A stretch of DNA of 23,749 nt from a virus: IMG/VR virus record IMGVR_UViG_3300049810_001420, positions 1 to 23,749 of that record; one strand, given 5' to 3'. A program made the position numbers and the translations under genes. Position 1 is the first letter of the stretch, and each line of letters starts with the position of its first letter. Below, piece after piece: positions 8,311 to 23,749 of the stretch. The notes under the pieces are model-generated. The model was given only the letters and a program-made list of their open reading frames with translations. It searched no databases and was not told where the DNA came from.

Positions 8311-8493
8311 ATGGCAGATCAAATTCACGAACAAATCGTAGCGGCCTATGATGCATACTTAAAAGAGCATGCCGCTTGGGAAGACAAAGGCGTTAAAGCC
8401 GCAGCCGCTAGAGCAAGAAAGGCACTTGGAGACATTGGTAAACTTACTAAGTCAAGACGTGCTGAGATTCAAGAAAAGAAAAACAGCATGTAA
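8311..8493 (+). CDS. small Hc1/histone H1-like basic protein
   Basis: A 60-residue Ala/Lys-rich, probably all-helical protein. The core KGVKAAAARARKALGDIGKL resembles the short Hc1/H1-like proteins annotated in phages and bacteria, which may bind nucleic acid; that role is not demonstrated by sequence alone. It has no Asp-Ser-Leu phosphopantetheine site, so it is not a carrier protein for the adjacent adenylating enzyme. GGAGAA precedes the ATG, and its TAA overlaps the ATG of the next gene by one base (TAATG), implying translational coupling. Confidence 0.75.
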   Translation: MADQIHEQIVAAYDAYLKEHAAWEDKGVKAAAARARKALGDIGKLTKSRRAEIQEKKNSM

Positions 8494-9821
8494 TGATTTC
8501 AATATCGAGATTACAAAACGATATTGAAATACATGATTGCACTAACGAACGTATCTACAGTAAAGATGAGTTAACTTGTCTTGCTGGAGGATATCAGCGT
8601 TTCTTTGAAAGTCAAAAACTTACAAGAGGCGATCGTATTTCATTGTGTCTGCAAGAAGACATACATCATCTAGCAGTAGTGTTTGCTTCTATTGACTACG
8701 GACTTGTTCCTGTTATTAGTGGTGACCATTATATTGATGACGAGTACTGTGCAAGGAGCAATATTAAAATTGTTCTAACTCGTGGAATACAACCTGTAAC
8801 TGTAAAAACTATTAATGTTCCTCACATTGAGTTAGATGGCAATATTGAACCATCAAAACTCTATCGTGTTAACCATAACGATATTATACTAGAATCGTTT
8901 ACTAGTGGTACAACAGGGCATTCTAAAACAGTAACACATACACACGAAAGTATTACTTGTGCTTCAAACGATAGTATCAAGCACTACTGGAAAGATGCAA
9001 AAACAAGTTGGTTTTATCATAATATTGTACACTTAGGTGTTAGTACTGTGTATTTCTTTCCTGCATTATTTTCTAGTAAAAAGGTCGTTTTGCCACATTT
9101 GTGGGACACTTATGATGTTGAAACATTTAATAAACACAAACCTGATACAATGTTATTGTTTCCATCAAACTATGAACAATACGAAAATTTAAGCAAGTTA
9201 GATTTAAGTCATGTTCGCTATGTACTAACTGGAGGTTCAACAATTCCAAAAACATTTTGTGAAAAACTAATTGAGCAAGGTGTTGATGATGTTGTTGTAA
9301 TATACGGACTAACAGAATGTTTGCCTCCTATTATGCATAAGTTTGTAAACAAACAAAACATTGCTGATTATAATCAGCAGGATATGGGTGTAAACTGTGA
9401 TGATACTGCTGAATACAAAATTGACAGACACGGTGAATTAGTAATTGTTAAAAGTAAGCATTTAGCAAAGCAAATTAACGATTCTAATGTGGATACATTA
9501 AATACAGGTGACCGTGTAAACACGGTTGGCGATAATTATTATTTTGAAAAACGTAATAAAGATTTTATTAGGATTAACGGAGAATTAGTTAATCCGCAAC
9601 AACTTGTTGACGAAAGTCAAGCAACAAAAATTGTGTTGTTTGGTACTTCTCAGACACATGTTGTAGTCTGTGTGAATGACGATTCAGTGAATACTGACAG
9701 TTTGATCCAGAAATTAACAGGCCAGGGTATCAGTTATGATAAACTAATAATACCCATAGAGCTTAATGTATTAGGAAAACCTGATATAGGAAAATTAAGG
9801 CAGAAGTATGTTTCAAATTAA
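8493..9821 (+). CDS. ANL-superfamily adenylate-forming enzyme (acyl/aryl-CoA ligase-like)
   Basis: A 442-residue AMP-binding enzyme that should activate a carboxylate as an acyl-AMP using ATP. Signature motifs are intact: the P-loop TSGTTGHSK (137-145), YGLTE (271-275), the ribose-binding Asp in NTGDRV (337-342), the hinge RNKDFIR (from 354) and a C-terminal LGKPDIGKL whose K429 sits where the catalytic A10 lysine lies. It is about 60-100 residues shorter than typical acyl-CoA synthetases, with both subdomains trimmed but no motif lost. The thiolation partner and substrate are unknown; no carrier protein is encoded nearby. It is coupled to the Hc1-like gene upstream and overlaps the membrane-protein gene downstream by 14 bases. 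Metabolic auxiliary gene, or a modification enzyme, are both possible. Confidence 0.85.
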   Translation: MISISRLQNDIEIHDCTNERIYSKDELTCLAGGYQRFFESQKLTRGDRISLCLQEDIHHLAVVFASIDYGLVPVISGDHYIDDEYCARSNIKIVLTRGIQPVTVKTINVPHIELDGNIEPSKLYRVNHNDIILESFTSGTTGHSKTVTHTHESITCASNDSIKHYWKDAKTSWFYHNIVHLGVSTVYFFPALFSSKKVVLPHLWDTYDVETFNKHKPDTMLLFPSNYEQYENLSKLDLSHVRYVLTGGSTIPKTFCEKLIEQGVDDVVVIYGLTECLPPIMHKFVNKQNIADYNQQDMGVNCDDTAEYKIDRHGELVIVKSKHLAKQINDSNVDTLNTGDRVNTVGDNYYFEKRNKDFIRINGELVNPQQLVDESQATKIVLFGTSQTHVVVCVNDDSVNTDSLIQKLTGQGISYDKLIIPIELNVLGKPDIGKLRQKYVSN

Positions 9822-10026
9822 AGCTCATCTTAAAGAAGCCCGCAAAGGTTACTTTCAACATGGCAAATTTGCTGTTGTGGCAGGACTCGATCTTATACTC
9901 ACAGGTATCGTTAGTATTATACATGGTATACTTCCTAACGTTTTACCATTTTACGCAGAGAAAAAGGTTGACTATTACCACAAGAAGGCATTACAATTAC
10001 AACAGTTAAGAAAACAAAAGAAATGA
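9808..10026 (+). CDS. small membrane protein, DUF6356-like
   Basis: A 72-residue protein whose N-terminal half (KEARKGYFQHGKFAVVAG) followed by a hydrophobic stretch (about residues 24-48, LDLILTGIVSIIHGILPNVLPF) resembles what I know as the DUF6356 pattern: an aromatic-Phe-Gln-His helix, one or two membrane helices with IIHG-I-P, and a basic tail (LRKQKK). Function is unknown in the family. Its ATG lies inside the end of the ANL gene (14-base overlap) and its TGA overlaps the start of the endonuclease gene (ATGA), so all three are co-translated. A membrane site near the adenylating enzyme would suit an acyl or lipid substrate, but that is speculation. Confidence 0.7.
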   Translation: MFQIKAHLKEARKGYFQHGKFAVVAGLDLILTGIVSIIHGILPNVLPFYAEKKVDYYHKKALQLQQLRKQKK

Positions 10027-10463
10027 GTTGGACTTATAAAGGTGATCCTATCGAGCAGTTACCAAGTGACGTTGAAGGATTTGTTTACTTAATAACCAAC
10101 TTAAAAAGCAACAAAAAATATATTGGCAAAAAACTAGCAAGATTTAAAAAAACAAGACCACCTCTTAAAGGTAAGAAAAACAAAAGACGAACCACAGTAG
10201 AAAGTGATTGGAGAGAATATTATGGATCTTCAGATCACTTACAGGCAGATGTAGCAGAGCTAGGCAGTACAAACTTCACACGTGAAATATTATATCTTTG
10301 TTCAAGTAGAGGCTTAATGAGTTATCTTGAAGCAAAGGAACAATTTGACAGGGAAGTTCTTTTATCAGATGATTACTATAATGGCATTATAAACGTTCGC
10401 GTAGGCAGTAGCAAAATTCTCCACGAAGGCATTCAACAGTTCAAGAACAATCAACAATTATAG
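10023..10463 (+). CDS. GIY-YIG-type endonuclease (SegE-like)
   Basis: A 146-residue protein. Residues about 19-38 (GFVYLITNLKSNKKYIGKKL) form the GIY-YIG core in its VYL...YIG variant, followed by a conserved basic insertion (PPLKGKKNKRR) and ESDWREYYGS. A later Glu in SYLEAKEQF fits the metal-binding glutamate of the fold. Similar proteins in T4-like phages are free-standing homing-type endonucleases such as the Seg group or of unknown substrate. No separate DNA-binding domain is visible. The ATG overlaps the preceding TGA. The structured non-coding region begins right after its TAG, which is worth noting because GIY-YIG nucleases often travel beside RNA elements. Confidence 0.8.
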   Translation: MSWTYKGDPIEQLPSDVEGFVYLITNLKSNKKYIGKKLARFKKTRPPLKGKKNKRRTTVESDWREYYGSSDHLQADVAELGSTNFTREILYLCSSRGLMSYLEAKEQFDREVLLSDDYYNGIINVRVGSSKILHEGIQQFKNNQQL

Positions 10464-10947: not shown

Positions 10948-11136
10948 CTAAAGTAATGCCATTCCGCTCTTCTCTGTATTCTTGATGTTTTCCGAAACGA
11001 TATCGTAGATAATCTTCTGCTCTTTCTGATTGAGCATGAATGCCTGATCCAGATTAATGCCACCACGCATATACCAAACTATCTTAAATATATTTTCTCT
11101 AATAGTGTCGGCTTCTGTGTCGAACTGCTTTAGCAT
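10948..11136 (-). CDS. tail-assembly-chaperone-like small protein, probably made as a -1 frameshift extension
   Basis: The ATG-initiated form has 62 residues (TIRENIFKIVWYMRGGINLD is its core) and looks all-helical. The ATG at 11136 has only a weak GAAG upstream. The same frame is open further upstream through RLLSLSNEDIES and reaches the AAATTTT heptamer at the end of the gp26-like gene. A -1 slip there would append 77 residues to residue 285 of that protein, giving a 362-residue fusion. A short helical ORF expressed as a frameshift tail is the classical G/GT arrangement of tail assembly chaperones that bind the tape measure, and a tape-measure-like gene lies next door on the other strand. 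Independent translation from 11136 cannot be excluded. I recognise similar short proteins in marine myophages but not a named T4 counterpart. Confidence 0.6.
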   Translation of the reverse strand: MLKQFDTEADTIRENIFKIVWYMRGGINLDQAFMLNQKEQKIIYDIVSENIKNTEKSGMALL

Positions 11137-11156
11137 CGATTCAATATCTTCGTTGC

Positions 11157-11187
11157 TAAGACTCAGAAGCCTTATGCGAAAAAATTT
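11157..11187 (-). promoter_or_regulatory. programmed -1 ribosomal frameshift signal
   Basis: Read on the minus strand in the gp26-like frame, the heptamer A AAT TTT (11187-11181) is a canonical X XXY YYZ slippery site. It is followed by a 6-base spacer (TTCGCA) and a hairpin TAAGGCT / loop TCTG / AGTCTTA (11174-11157), 7 bp with one G-T wobble. The zero-frame TAA is the first three bases of the hairpin. The -1 frame is exactly that of the downstream small ORF. Confidence 0.7.
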
Positions 11188-12035
11188 GAATTGTCAAATA
11201 CTATAGGTGTGTTATACTTTGTATCACAACCTTCATTTTCACAAGTTAATTCAAACTCTGCAAAACTGTTATTCACTCTTTCATTATCAAGATGTTTTTG
11301 AATAGTATCAAACATCTTTCTATCAACTCCGTGAACAAACTCGTTAATGTGTTTAATGTTTGTTACTTCAGTACCATCAGCAGTAGTAATTTTAAAAATT
11401 GTTTTAGCAATTAAGTCAACTGTGTGTACAGTAAGTTTTAAGAATGTATCGTTAAACAACTGTTGTTTTTGTTCATCAGTTGTTGTTTCATCATTGACAA
11501 TTCTCATAATTTTTGCTTCTTCAAACTGTCTAAGATTTTCAGTGTTTAAGTCTTTGTATGATAGTGGTTTAAATTTAATTGTTAAATCATCTACTTGCAA
11601 AGTATCATTGAACACCCATTTTCCGCTTTGGTCAATTAAGTTTGCTAAGTCAATGCCAAACTCATTTTTTGCTTGACAAGTAGGACAAGTGGCGGTAATA
11701 TCCATTTGATTACCGTATGTTGCAATACGAATAGCAATTAATAAAACATCCATATCTAAACTTGGTATGGACCACGGGTCTTTAATAGCAGGTACACAAC
11801 TCTTAATAACTTCAACGGTACTGCTTCCGTTAAGTAGTGCATCTGGAGTTTTAAAAACTAACTCGTCTTTTGCAGTCATTGGAAATACACCTATCTCTCC
11901 GTTTTGTGGAAAATCTATGGCACCGGGTGCATAGTAGTTTCCTTTGCTGGGTAGAGACACATATACTTCAGGTTTACGAAAATATCCGGTTAAGGGATTT
12001 TGATCCTGTTTTAAAGGATTCGCGTTTTCATCCAT
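11172..12035 (-). CDS. gp26/gp51-family baseplate hub assembly protein
   Basis: A 287-residue protein of the family I know as T4_baseplate (gp26/gp51). Hallmarks are an N-terminal LPSKGNYY turn, then FPMTAKDELVFKTPDALLNG and KSCVPAIKDPWSIPSLDMD, followed by a long helix. A probable zinc ribbon is formed by C117 and C120 (CPTC) with C265 and C270 (CENEGC). In T4 these proteins are needed to assemble the central hub rather than being major virion parts. The last codons hold a -1 slippery site that would extend it into the downstream ORF, which suggests it is the short partner of a tail assembly chaperone pair. ATG at 12035 is preceded by CGGAGC; a late promoter lies at 12084-12078. Confidence 0.75.
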   Translation of the reverse strand: MDENANPLKQDQNPLTGYFRKPEVYVSLPSKGNYYAPGAIDFPQNGEIGVFPMTAKDELVFKTPDALLNGSSTVEVIKSCVPAIKDPWSIPSLDMDVLLIAIRIATYGNQMDITATCPTCQAKNEFGIDLANLIDQSGKWVFNDTLQVDDLTIKFKPLSYKDLNTENLRQFEEAKIMRIVNDETTTDEQKQQLFNDTFLKLTVHTVDLIAKTIFKITTADGTEVTNIKHINEFVHGVDRKMFDTIQKHLDNERVNNSFAEFELTCENEGCDTKYNTPIVFDNSNFFA

Positions 12036-12095: not shown

Positions 12096-14429
12096 ATGGC
12101 AGTTACAGTAGACATAGACGGTGGTAGAGTAGAAATCAGTGACGTAGCAACTGAGAAAACACTTGAACGATTAGTTAACTTAATGGAAAAAAGTGCAACT
12201 GGTAAAACTCCAGCTGCTGTTGCAGAAGTAAAAGCTCGTGCGGCAAACACAAAAGAATTAACAACAGGAGTGGTCAAGTTAAAAGGACTAGCAAGTGCTG
12301 GTTCAGATGCCACTGATGCATTAGAAGATGCAGCCAAAAGTGCAAACACATTTGCAGCCAGAGGCAAAAAAATGCTGGACGCAGTACTTGGTGCTGGTAA
12401 AGGATTAATCAACTTTGGCGGAGAAGTTGCTGGAACTGGCCTGAATATGAAGTCACTAGGTGACGCAGTAGACAAAAATGCTAGTCAGTTTGGTGCCTTG
12501 GGTGCTGTATTTGGTGCAGCCGCAGGTGCTATAGTTGGACACAGTGCAAATTTAATTGATACGTTTGATGGACTAAGTTCAACTGGTGCAACATTTACAA
12601 ATAACTTATTTGATCTTGAAAGAGTAGCGGCTAACAGTTATTTGTCATTAGAACAAATGACAGGTATGTTACGAGAGAATAGCGAAAGTTTAGCAGTATT
12701 TGGTGGTAGTGCAAGATTAGGTGCAAAACGTTTTAGTGAAATGAACCGTGTTGTACAAGACACTTATCGTACAGACTTTGCTATGATGGGTATTAAGGCT
12801 AGTGAAAGTGCAGAAATGTTAGCACAGTTCACTGCAATGCAAGCCAGAAACACACAATTTGCAACATTAGGTGTGCAACAACAAGCACAAGCAGGAGCCA
12901 ATTTTGTAAAAGAAGTACAAATGATGGCAAACTTAACTGGACAAGATCGTAAACAACTTGCTCAGAAAATGGCAAACGATAAACGTAGAGCAGATGTTGA
13001 ACTGCAGATGAGTCGTATGCAAGGTGAAGCAGCCAGTGGTGCCAGAGCTGCATTTGCAACAATGGGTACACAGTTTGGTGAAGGCTCGCCAATAATGGAC
13101 GCACTAAGAACTAGTTTCTTAGGATTACCGGCAGCGGCAACCACTGCTGGAAACATGTTACTACAAGACGGTAATATGGGTCCTGTTATTGCAAGGATTA
13201 CTGCTGGGTTAAAAGATGGCACAGTGAGTATGACTGACATCCAAAAAGAATTAGCCGGAGTTAGTACTACATTCATTGAAGCAAATAAAGGAATGGAAGG
13301 CATTGCACAATATAGTGAAATTGCAATGGCGTTTACAGAAGTATCGGCTGCATTATTAAATGCACAAAAGCAAAGATTAACAGTTGAAAAAGATTTTAAC
13401 GGAGACTATGACAAGTTTGTTGCAGCTCAAAAAACACAACTAGACGAAAATAGTAAGAACATGAAGAACGTTGACTTACTATCACAAGAAATTGGTAAAA
13501 CTGTAAGATTAGGTTTTAATAGTGTAACAGAGTCAGCAGTAAGCGTTATGTCAGCAGGTGTTAAATCTTTACAAACACTAGTTACTAGTATGCCAACATC
13601 AATGGACGCATTTACTAACGCAATTGGAGATGCTAGTAAACCAGCAACGGCAACAGGTGCCGCTATGGGATTGCAAAAAGGATTTACAAAAGCAGCAGGT
13701 CAGTTAAAAGTGTTTAAAGAAGCACTAGCAAAAATAGGAATTGGTGGCGGTACTGCTTCGGCAACTACTGCAACATCAACTAATATTGCAGAAGGTGTAA
13801 TAAAAGGAGCCCAATCATCAGATGAGGTAGCAAAAGCAGCCGGCCAATCAACTACTATGCTTAGTAAAGCATCTGGAATGTTAGGCAAGATTCTTCCAAG
13901 AATTCCTATTATAGGTTCAGCACTTTCGGGTGGTGTAACATATGCAACAAGTGAGCAAGAAACACAAGTTGGTAAAATTAGTGAAGGTATTGGTTCAGGA
14001 CTTGGATCATTTGGCGGTGCAGCCGGCGGAGCGGCAACAGGTGCATTAATAGGAAGTGCAGTTCCAATTATTGGAACTTTAATTGGTGGAATAATAGGCG
14101 GTATTGCTGGCGGTATTGGCGGAGATATGCTTGGTAAATCTGTAGGAGGTAAGTTAGCAAACTTTTTTGGATTTGCAGAAGGCGGAATCGTTACACAACC
14201 GATTTACAATGCTGCGATTGGTGAAAAACCAGGAACACAAGAAGGTGTTTTCCCTTTACCTGCAAACTTTGATAAAGACACAGCCTTTGACAGAAGTGGC
14301 GAGAAAGCAATGGCTCAAGCGGCACAACAGATAGCAAAAGCAGTAACTAACTTTGATAACTCTGAAATGTTACAAGAGATGAGAAAATTTAATAAAAATA
14401 TTAAAGTAGTCGGAGATAGACTAGCATAA
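12096..14429 (+). CDS. tail tape measure-like protein
   Basis: A 777-residue Ala/Gly/Met-rich, largely helical protein. The middle (about residues 160-540) is low in Pro and Cys and rich in amphipathic helices, as expected of a tape measure. Hydrophobic Ala/Gly-rich segments occur near residues 125-150, and there is a long glycine-zipper region near 625-690 (GALIGSAVPIIGTLIGGIIG and after). The tail end FAEGGIVTQPIYNAAIGEKP followed by EGVFPLP is the tape-measure C-terminal motif (FAxGGIVTxPxxxxxGExGxE..xPL). Tape measures set tail length and are ejected first into the cell membrane. In T4 the equivalent gp29 is 590 aa and sits with genes 27, 28 and 48; here it stands alone beside the putative chaperone pair. 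I see no T4 gp29 similarity, so the role rests on composition and the C-terminal motif. Confidence 0.6.
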   Translation: MAVTVDIDGGRVEISDVATEKTLERLVNLMEKSATGKTPAAVAEVKARAANTKELTTGVVKLKGLASAGSDATDALEDAAKSANTFAARGKKMLDAVLGAGKGLINFGGEVAGTGLNMKSLGDAVDKNASQFGALGAVFGAAAGAIVGHSANLIDTFDGLSSTGATFTNNLFDLERVAANSYLSLEQMTGMLRENSESLAVFGGSARLGAKRFSEMNRVVQDTYRTDFAMMGIKASESAEMLAQFTAMQARNTQFATLGVQQQAQAGANFVKEVQMMANLTGQDRKQLAQKMANDKRRADVELQMSRMQGEAASGARAAFATMGTQFGEGSPIMDALRTSFLGLPAAATTAGNMLLQDGNMGPVIARITAGLKDGTVSMTDIQKELAGVSTTFIEANKGMEGIAQYSEIAMAFTEVSAALLNAQKQRLTVEKDFNGDYDKFVAAQKTQLDENSKNMKNVDLLSQEIGKTVRLGFNSVTESAVSVMSAGVKSLQTLVTSMPTSMDAFTNAIGDASKPATATGAAMGLQKGFTKAAGQLKVFKEALAKIGIGGGTASATTATSTNIAEGVIKGAQSSDEVAKAAGQSTTMLSKASGMLGKILPRIPIIGSALSGGVTYATSEQETQVGKISEGIGSGLGSFGGAAGGAATGALIGSAVPIIGTLIGGIIGGIAGGIGGDMLGKSVGGKLANFFGFAEGGIVTQPIYNAAIGEKPGTQEGVFPLPANFDKDTAFDRSGEKAMAQAAQQIAKAVTNFDNSEMLQEMRKFNKNIKVVGDRLA

Positions 14430-22659: not shown

Positions 22660-23749
22660 ATGGCAATAGGAAGAATTTCTGGTGCTATGCTCAAGAATAA
22701 TCTTGAGAGATTAGGCACAGATTTATCATTTGAAACAGATTTATTATACCTCGACGTAGCAAACAGTCGAATAGGTATAGGAACATCAACCCCCACAACA
22801 ACATTACAAGCAGACAATGTAACGATTAGCGGATCTGCAATTAGAAGTGTATCCGGTGACTTAGACTTAGGTACAGACGCAACTAATATTACTATTGGTG
22901 GCGGAAGTGCAGACTATGTTTTAACCACTGATGGCTCGGGTAATTTAACTTGGGATTCATTAGGTAATTTAGCAACAAGCGGTGGCGGAGGCTCTGGAGC
23001 CTTTACTGGAATGGATATTAATTTATCTACACCATCAGATTCAAGTTTAACACAATACGGTGCAATTAATAGTTGGACTACTGCAACTAAAGTTACTAAT
23101 TCAATTGACGATTTAAATGAATTATCTCGTAACGTTATTAATAATACAGCAGTGATAGACGCAGATTTTACAGGAAGTCCTTTAACCGGCGGTGCTGGTA
23201 TGAACGTTACTCTTAATATTAGTTCAGATGGTAATGCAAATCAATATGTAATTGATTGGGGAGACGGAACATCTAATACAACAACTTCGTCTACTACTCC
23301 TAGTCACGTTTACGCAACTAACACCGGAAGCCCTTTTACAGTTACGGTTACGGCAAGTAACACCAGCGGTGAAGGTGCAGGAAGTTCATCACAAAAGGCA
23401 AGAACAAGTTATGTTACAATCTATACTGCTGACCCAGTAGTTAGTTTTGCAGCCTATGCCGCGGCAAGTGGCGGAAGTCCAATTACATATTGGGACGATG
23501 GTGCTACAGTATATTTTCAAAACAATACAACAAATACAACTGGAGCAACTGTTCAGTATACATACGCATGGGGCGACGGTTCAAGTGATGATGTTGTAAC
23601 ATCAGATAGTGATGCAGGTGGTGTAACAGGAACACGATTAGCACATACATTTGCTACAAGCACAGAAACAGAAGTAAGTAGAACAGTTGAATTAACACTT
23701 GATTCTCATAGTACTGCGTTACCAAGTGCAGTACCGACTGACGATTCAG
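22660..23749 (+). CDS. tail fibre-like protein with two PKD domains (partial)
   Basis: The frame opens with ATG at 22660, preceded by GTAGGAAGAG, and stays open to the window end, so 363 residues of an unknown total are visible. The N-terminus (SRIGIGTSTPTTTLQADNV, residues about 36-54) carries the IGIGTxxP fibre-shaft motif, followed by a Gly-rich linker near 116-122 and an NELS/NNTA helix. Two immunoglobulin-like PKD domains follow: QYVIDWGDGTSN (W200) with HVYA and FTVTVTASN, and YTYAWGDGSSDD (W304) with AHTFA. PKD domains in phage tails and bacterial surface proteins bind glycans or proteins, so this is a candidate receptor-binding or decoration protein. Further repeats may lie beyond the window. 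Confidence 0.8.
   Translation, partial: MAIGRISGAMLKNNLERLGTDLSFETDLLYLDVANSRIGIGTSTPTTTLQADNVTISGSAIRSVSGDLDLGTDATNITIGGGSADYVLTTDGSGNLTWDSLGNLATSGGGGSGAFTGMDINLSTPSDSSLTQYGAINSWTTATKVTNSIDDLNELSRNVINNTAVIDADFTGSPLTGGAGMNVTLNISSDGNANQYVIDWGDGTSNTTTSSTTPSHVYATNTGSPFTVTVTASNTSGEGAGSSSQKARTSYVTIYTADPVVSFAAYAAASGGSPITYWDDGATVYFQNNTTNTTGATVQYTYAWGDGSSDDVVTSDSDAGGVTGTRLAHTFATSTETEVSRTVELTLDSHSTALPSAVPTDDS

Follow-up and report, generated by a model that had tools for sequence, protein, structure and literature searches.

In Escherichia coli dnaX, the -1 frameshift signal consists of the heptamer A_AAA_AAG, a Shine-Dalgarno-like element roughly 10 nt ahead of it, and a stem roughly 6 nt past it. 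Among phage tail genes, gp13/gp14 of HK97 are counterparts of lambda gpG/gpGT. In lambda, a short protein and a longer one are produced by -1 frameshifting near the gene end and function in tail assembly, as the available text of PMC5009743 describes. T4, 44RR, and KP15 instead use two in-frame genes, 26 and 51, and no gp51-like ORF is present in the -1 frame of their gene 26.

Here we analyze a gp26-like gene encoded in 23,749 nt of DNA from a marine phage (IMG/VR record IMGVR_UViG_3300049810_001420; hereafter, the window). Like lambda G/GT, it specifies a short protein with a downstream-encoded extension that a -1 slip near the gene end would join to it. Unlike lambda G/GT, it belongs to PF12322 of the T4 superfamily, its 0-frame protein carries Cys-rich motifs, and the long ORF beside it is divergent (79/83 loci) rather than next downstream. 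With T4 genes 26 and 51 it shares membership in PF12322 and phrog_150, and the C-terminal domain of T4 gp51 corresponds to the domain encoded in the -1 frame in cyanophages. Many cyanophage loci also share the dnaX spacing of upstream element and stem; their heptamer, however, is T_TTT_TTC rather than A_AAA_AAG, and loci of the window's own type have a stem but no upstream element. Judged from sequence, it is nearly certain that the gp26-like gene ends in a programmed -1 frameshift site.

Slip site and coding layout in the window

In profile searches the gp26-like protein matched PF12322 (T4_baseplate; E 3.7e-17, 63 bits against a curated cut-off of 24.5) and phrog_150 (baseplate hub; E 9e-20). 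The last codons of its gene read TCA AAT TTT TTC GCA TAA. The first-pass annotation of this DNA had pointed to AAATTTT as a slippery heptamer and to an open -1 frame giving a 362-residue product next to the 287-residue one. The sequence agrees on both counts: the heptamer lies in the frame proposed, and the -1 frame is open as far as a stop at 10950-10948. A second heptamer, T_TTT_TTC, overlaps the first, and a slip on either yields the same long product (Table 1). The gene thus has the coding capacity for a short and a C-terminally extended form. A lone heptamer is little proof of function, because the 0 frame of 22 window genes (6819 codon positions) holds 29 X_XXY_YYZ heptamers in which Y is A or T. 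T_TTT_TTC occurs once in this set, at the slip site only, and the site is not a chance occurrence, since it is conserved among relatives (see below).

Table 1. Features of the gp26-like locus in the window (positions are those of the window)
Feature	Position	Strand	Basis
gp26-like gene, 0-frame short form (287 aa + stop)	11172..12035	-	PF12322 and phrog_150 matches
Slippery heptamer T_TTT_TTC, conserved core	11178..11184	-	exact TTTTTTC in 116/120 representatives
Slippery heptamer A_AAT_TTT, overlapping T_TTT_TTC	11181..11187	-	intact also in AAT TTT TCC loci
6-nt spacer GCATAA, containing the 0-frame stop	11172..11177	-	sequence
-1-frame extension (76 residues + stop)	10948..11178	-	pN/pS 0.29 ahead of any start codon
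Putative long form, 362 aa (286 + 76 residues)	join 12035..11178, 11178..10948	-	translation
5' arm of predicted stimulatory stem, GGCUUCUG	11164..11171	-	folding
3' arm of predicted stimulatory stem, CAGAAGCC	11110..11117	-	folding
Small 7-bp hairpin of the first-pass annotation	11157..11174	-	can form, not conserved
Divergent neighbor, candidate tape measure (777 aa)	12096..14429	+	phrog_167 and phrog_1047 matches

Elsewhere in the window, an ORF judged gp46-like by eye is followed by a gene for a 60-residue protein similar to histone H1-like Hc1 (8311-8493, E 1.5e-9), which touches an AMP-binding enzyme gene (8493-9821, PF00501, E 1.6e-28). Positions 9808-10026 encode a 72-residue protein that matches DUF6356 (E 7e-10), an unexplained family. 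A SegE-type GIY-YIG endonuclease gene (10023-10463, E 5e-36) lies on the strand opposite to the extension and ends about 485 nt from its end, and a PKD-domain protein (22660-23748) runs off the window end.

The slip site and the -1 frame are conserved among relatives

Three sets of loci were collected. A protein search of viral contigs provided the window-type set, the best 80 of 126 relatives, 79 of which were analyzed (L009 is truncated). Fourteen isolate records were chosen from 64 matches: Atu_ph07, PA5oct, Phosso, BF, GAP32, RaK2, Vibrio 2.275.O, 121Q, Munch, CBB, SCTP-2, XacN1, XbC2, and Kaldavass. Sharanji, another relative, has E. coli K-12 MG1655 as its recorded host. The cyanophage set consisted of the best 80 of at least 600 related viral-contig loci, 79 of them readable (L162 runs off), and of S-SSM7, whose gene 26 ends GCC GAT TTT TTC GCC TAA with the annotated gp51 ORF in the -1 frame. 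Together these make 173 loci (79 window-type, 14 isolates, and 80 including S-SSM7). Keeping only loci below 90% identity to one another left 120 representatives; limits of 70% and 60% left 52 and 36, respectively.

The arrangement seen in the window was present throughout. All 79 window-type loci have NNT TTT TTC or AAT TTT TCC near the gene end and a similar -1 extension; the 14 isolates share the arrangement, with TTT TTT in XacN1; and all 79 cyanophage contig loci have NNT TTT TTC and a -1 ORF, that of L143 being cut by the locus end. Overall, NNT TTT TTC, TTT TTT, or TTT TCC stands ahead of a -1-frame extension in 173/173 loci, each with a 0-frame X_XXY_YYZ heptamer before the stop and an open -1 frame. 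The filter used to locate the sites took only such patterns in the last codons of the gene; zero loci failed it, and unfiltered gene ends were inspected as well. Among the 120 representatives the heptamer is TTTTTTC in 116, TTTTTCC in three, and TTTTTTT in one. In none of the 14 isolates is a joined gene annotated. Their records list the extension on its own, in many cases shortened, as a hypothetical protein or a predicted ORF; those of PA5oct and RaK2 leave it unannotated.

Eleven further isolates were read singly, besides S-SSM7. Nine of them (P-SSM7, S-CRM01, Ah1, phiAS5, RHph_Y68, RL2RES, XG4, D490, and ORM_20) have T_TTT_TTC or its variants ending in TTG or TTA, so that the slip site is present in ten of the 12 individually read isolates with a -1 ORF (S-SSM7 is also among the 173 loci). 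Ah1 and phiAS5 are members of the Straboviridae, T4's own family, according to their genome records. In P-SSM7 (L193), the annotated gp51 (2001-2096) covers only the last 31 residues of a -1 ORF whose open frame already starts ahead of the slip site. The expectation of the first-pass annotation that relatives would keep the site and the -1 relation is thus borne out in all 173 loci and in ten of 12 singly read isolates. As to the site, it fails in the remaining two, K362 (a Vibrio phage) and Cygsa01 (a Pseudomonas phage), where the -1 ORF is retained but no canonical heptamer precedes it. At the gp26 end of both (L196 and L110, respectively) there is a stop-start overlap, TAATG, an apparent switch from frameshifting to reinitiation.

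Which of the two overlapping heptamers is used may differ between lineages. The first-pass annotation had singled out A_AAT_TTT; it is present and probably used in one sub-clade, but T_TTT_TTC is the most conserved. We rejected A_AAT_TTT as the sole general slip site, since 81/120 representatives open the site with a codon other than AAT. Four loci (L055, L066, L071, and L072) read AAT TTT TCC where others have AAT TTT TTC. There only T_TTT_TTC is broken while A_AAT_TTT stays intact, which suggests that these loci slip on the upstream heptamer. A_AAT_TTT is likely used by the sub-clade in which A(C/T)(G/A)GCTTC follows AAT TTT TTC/TCC; in these loci 5 nt would separate this heptamer from the stem.

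The slip site is under selection at the nucleotide level, and the -1 stretch is under purifying selection

The base preceding TTT is T in 120/120 representatives, and the residue whose codon it ends is S, N, D, H, T, A, G, R, or Y. Measured against the codon use of each gene, the joint log10 P of that T is -27.8 for the 120 and -10.8 for the 36 representatives; these values are too small because the loci are related, the 36-representative value being least affected. The slip site is therefore conserved and under nucleotide-level selection, and site and -1 frame are kept beyond what protein constraint accounts for.

The position of start codons in the -1 frame varies between sets. The first ATG comes at least 30 codons past the slip in 32/46 window-type and 3/12 isolate representatives (before codon 30 in the other 9/12), and in 22/46 window-type representatives the same holds for the first ATG, GTG, or TTG. 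Among the cyanophages, an ATG follows the slip by 3 codons in 48/62 representatives. The first-pass annotation had named a conserved strong start for the small ORF as evidence against the frameshift. No such start is conserved across the sets: most window-type loci lack an early ATG, whereas most isolates and cyanophages have one.

Selection was measured on the -1 codons between the 0-frame stop and the first start codon, in window-type and isolate pairs of at least 60% identity. Substitutions over the -1 codon positions were distributed 153:91:275, and pN/pS was 0.29 over 34 overlapping pairs and 0.107/0.377 over 11 disjoint pairs. The -1 stretch ahead of any start codon is under purifying selection, which is explained by frame-shifted reading and not by an independent start. 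In cyanophages and most isolates, with their early ATG, reinitiation could also make the small protein.

Predicted stimulatory stem and upstream element

As a stimulator we considered a stem 5-9 nt downstream or a Shine-Dalgarno-like element 10-14 nt upstream. For the window, folding predicts such a stem, GGCUUCUG/CAGAAGCC (-22 kcal/mol), which begins exactly 6 nt past T_TTT_TTC. The folding z of the region is -3.1, and that of a locus identical to the window (L002) is -4.2 against synonymous recodings. The 7-bp hairpin put forward by the first-pass annotation can form (-4.5 kcal/mol), but it is mutually exclusive with the much stronger long stem, and its full form was found in only three (L002, L006, and L007) of 14 loci inspected. 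We therefore rejected it as a conserved stimulator. Stems resembling the long stem recur among relatives. Those of Phosso (GGCUCUUG/CAAGAGCC), Atu_ph07 (GGCUCUUUGU/ACAAAGAGCC), and L014 (GGCUUUUGA/UCAAAAGCC) likewise start 6 nt after T_TTT_TTC.

Folding of the downstream region was compared across sets. In 75-nt windows the mean z was -2.58 (31 window-type loci), -2.16 (10 isolates), and -1.87 (11 cyanophages); in 40-nt windows it was -0.40, -1.19, and -2.81, respectively. Control means lay between -0.46 and +0.36 overall, with matched values of -0.28 (window-type, 75 nt), -0.45 (isolates, 75 nt), and -0.25 (cyanophages, 40 nt). Window-type loci show little signal at 40 nt (-0.40 versus -0.17 in controls); their stem is seen only in the 75-nt window because it spans more than 40 nt. 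Only 3/10 isolates passed z -2 in downstream folding. In comparison with recodings that preserve the -1 peptide, the mean z was -2.52 (window-type), -1.54 (isolates), and -2.22 (cyanophages), with values below -2 in 19/31, 4/10, and 5/11 loci. A stem score of at least 18 was reached in 14/46 window-type loci versus 9/230 swapped controls, in 5/12 isolates versus 5/60, and in 20/62 cyanophages versus 31/310; many loci lack a strong perfect stem at the expected place in this test.

In S-SSM7 and similar cyanophages, the predicted stem AGUAUGUCUCA/UGAGACAUACU buries the ATG of the -1 ORF. Its register is paired in 81% of cells over 48 loci, compared with 27-52% for slid registers; double changes (17) are not above those in slid registers (3-18), and the 14 cyanophage loci without that ATG are 38% paired in the same register. 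Upstream, 55/62 cyanophage representatives carry a GAGG whose end lies 10 nt from the heptamer, and GAG occupies that position in 55/62, compared with 451/1475 elsewhere. This GAGG is unfit as a ribosome site for the ATG because it ends about 25 nt upstream of it, which is too far. The window-type upstream consensus contains no Shine-Dalgarno-like element.

Relationship to T4 gp26 and gp51

T4 gp26 and T4 gp51 both match PF12322 over its whole length and both match phrog_150; they are hence paralogues. Residues 147-246 of T4 gp51 match phrog_634 (E 1e-23), as do the -1 ORFs of S-SSM7 (E 1e-26) and RL2RES. In hhalign comparisons, the cyanophage extensions align with the C-termini of T4-type gp51 at probability 97 (E 1e-10). 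The cyanophage -1 ORF is thus homologous to the C-terminus of gp51. The window-type proteins are related by homology to the T4/cyanophage family in their N-terminal part (probability 96.6, E 5e-10). Their extension aligns weakly with the gp51 C-terminus (probability 20-32), at the corresponding place, and the window extension gave no match to phrog_634 in the profile search. A scan with KP15 gp51 returned a single matching locus, 100% identical.

Two trees were built. One includes window-type sequences, which fall on one side of the root, and excludes 44RR, KP15, XG4, and other sequences. T4-type gp26 and gp51 group together in it (82/54), nested among frameshifting genes and next to phiAS5, Ah1, and D490 (93/90), and K362 pairs with Cygsa01 (99/97). 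An earlier tree omits the window-type sequences and keeps the long-branched 44RR, KP15, XG4, and others; there T4 gp26 and gp51 are not joined (fork 44/41, long branches), and frameshifting genes group with K362 and Cygsa01 (95/97). Taken together, the trees indicate that frameshifting is probably ancestral and that the T4 pair probably arose by duplication, the key fork being weak. T4 may thus have exchanged a frameshift for a gene duplication.

A putative tail assembly chaperone

The product of the divergent neighbor matches both phrog_167 (tail length tape measure, E 1e-5) and phrog_1047 (tail-associated lysin, E 1e-10), and the corresponding neighbor in RaK2 is annotated as similar to tape measure protein. 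Among window-type and isolate loci, 83 had sufficient flanking sequence; in 79 of these a divergent ORF of at least 250 codons adjoins the gene, and 25/83 show sequence similarity to the tape-measure candidate of the window.

The available sections of a T4 review present gp26 and gp51 as hub assembly chaperones, with gp51 not in the particle; they also report genetic support for gp26 in the hub. In the available text of the XacN1 paper, the baseplate hub protein ORF317 (gp26-like) is undetected in virions, and so is its RaK2 counterpart. For CBB, gene numbers were matched to the published virion table through RefSeq tags. In the part of that source available, a table of 55 virion proteins, CBB_249 and CBB_250 are missing and the divergent neighbor CBB_251 is represented by 29 peptides. 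RefSeq names the CBB gp26-like product "structural protein." The available text of the phAPEC6 paper (PMC7247149) holds no usable statement on the gp26-like protein.

Structural models were obtained for the short form (pLDDT 88) and for a T4-like gp51 (pLDDT 93). Residues 1-74 of the latter align with the HK97 chaperone chain 2ob9 (Z 3.9, rmsd 2.8, 70 aligned residues), which came second to C1QBP (Z 4.9) in the comparison with 974 chains top-ranked by Foldseek; the match is a lead only, since Z under 8 can be chance. For the window protein model, 2ob9 is not among the top 50 entries. Foldseek against the PDB gave no match at E 0.001 for either model, a result that excludes no family. Sequence search found no solved relative of the window protein, the entries returned by profiles included no phage tail protein, and no tail-chaperone family or chain was matched by the gp26-like family in sequence. 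It is quite likely, in our judgment, that the gene has a role like that of lambda G/GT; by analogy it would work in the same way, and the modest 2ob9 match is a lead toward a possible shared fold. The T4 review, the virion proteomes that lack the gp26-like protein, and the link to T4 gp51 support a putative pair of chaperones that would act on the tape measure.

Discussion

We propose that most ribosomes would read TTT TTC GCA TAA and stop, producing the 287-residue gp26-like protein. A minority, paused by the RNA stem 6 nt downstream, would slip back by one base on T_TTT_TTC or A_AAT_TTT and add 76 residues, giving the long form. In 121Q-like phages the junction of the long form would read SHFF|RVMLL. 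That slipping takes place, and at a rate that keeps the long form the minor product, is what we infer. The two forms may be tail assembly chaperones, as lambda gpG and gpGT are; both would bind the tape measure, with the extension recruiting a second tail part. The frameshift would be ancestral in the T4 superfamily, and in T-even-like phages a duplication would have fixed the short product as gene 26 and the long one, now in frame, as gene 51. We regard this reading as a whole, from the frameshift through short and long tail chaperones to ancestry and T-even duplication, as highly probable.

The downstream ORF might instead encode a separate protein made by termination-reinitiation near the stop, its -1 relation reflecting close packing. 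K362 and Cygsa01, with TAATG overlaps and no heptamer, look like such a case, most cyanophages and several isolates have an early ATG (in the former 3 codons past the slip), and annotated records give the ORFs apart or omit the second. Yet 32/46 window-type representatives go without an ATG, and 22/46 without ATG, GTG, or TTG, for at least 30 codons while the stretch is under purifying selection; the reading of P-SSM7 gp51 as a separate ORF cuts it to 31 residues; the T before TTT TTC is held whatever the residue; and the cyanophage ATG sits within a predicted stem. We consider reinitiation very unlikely as the general explanation. Gain or loss of a base by transcriptional slippage on the T run could also produce the fusion, given that each site has a run of five to seven T. 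Such slippage usually needs longer runs, however; 116/120 representatives have a run of six and a single one has seven. In addition, TTT TCC is present in some loci, and stems and GAGG lie at distances suited to the ribosome, which makes this explanation scarcely credible. Programmed -1 frameshifting by the ribosome accounts better for these observations.

A different doubt concerns the products, which could be parts of the baseplate hub rather than tape-measure chaperones even if the frameshift is real. The family names read baseplate hub (PF12322 T4_baseplate, phrog_150), and the genetic support for T4 gp26 in the hub and the "structural protein" label in CBB fit this view. Against it stand the chaperone assignment of gp26 and gp51 in the available sections of the T4 review, where gp51 is absent from the particle, and the lack of the gp26-like protein among the virion proteins of XacN1, RaK2, and CBB in the parts of those reports available. 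Hub parts thus seem unlikely, and we favor tail-assembly chaperones.

The evolutionary scenario is reasonably likely in our view: the ancestor of the T4 superfamily would have had one frameshifting tail chaperone gene, from which there were two escapes, duplication into 26 and 51 in the T-even lineage and the TAATG restart in the Vibrio/Pseudomonas lineage. T4 gp51 would then be a hard-wired frameshift product that serves the tape measure, gp29, as a GT-like chaperone.

The first-pass annotation knew of no report of a frameshift in the gp26/gp51 family, and we found none among the titles and abstract openings listed by our literature searches, which drew mostly on sources other than subscription journals and preprints. 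The best reading is that a programmed -1 frameshift of this family had gone unrecognized. If this is true, the slip site would be among the most conserved nucleotide signals of the T4 superfamily. The finding suggests a testable role for gp51, an essential but unexplained assembly protein of T4, and would explain the tiny ORF called gp51 in cyanophages. It would also mean that in marine, jumbo, and Aeromonas T4-like genomes one protein has been annotated as two, or part of it missed. Within the T4 superfamily, the frameshift and two-gene designs could then be compared in a single family, which may show why the ratio of short to long chaperone is kept.
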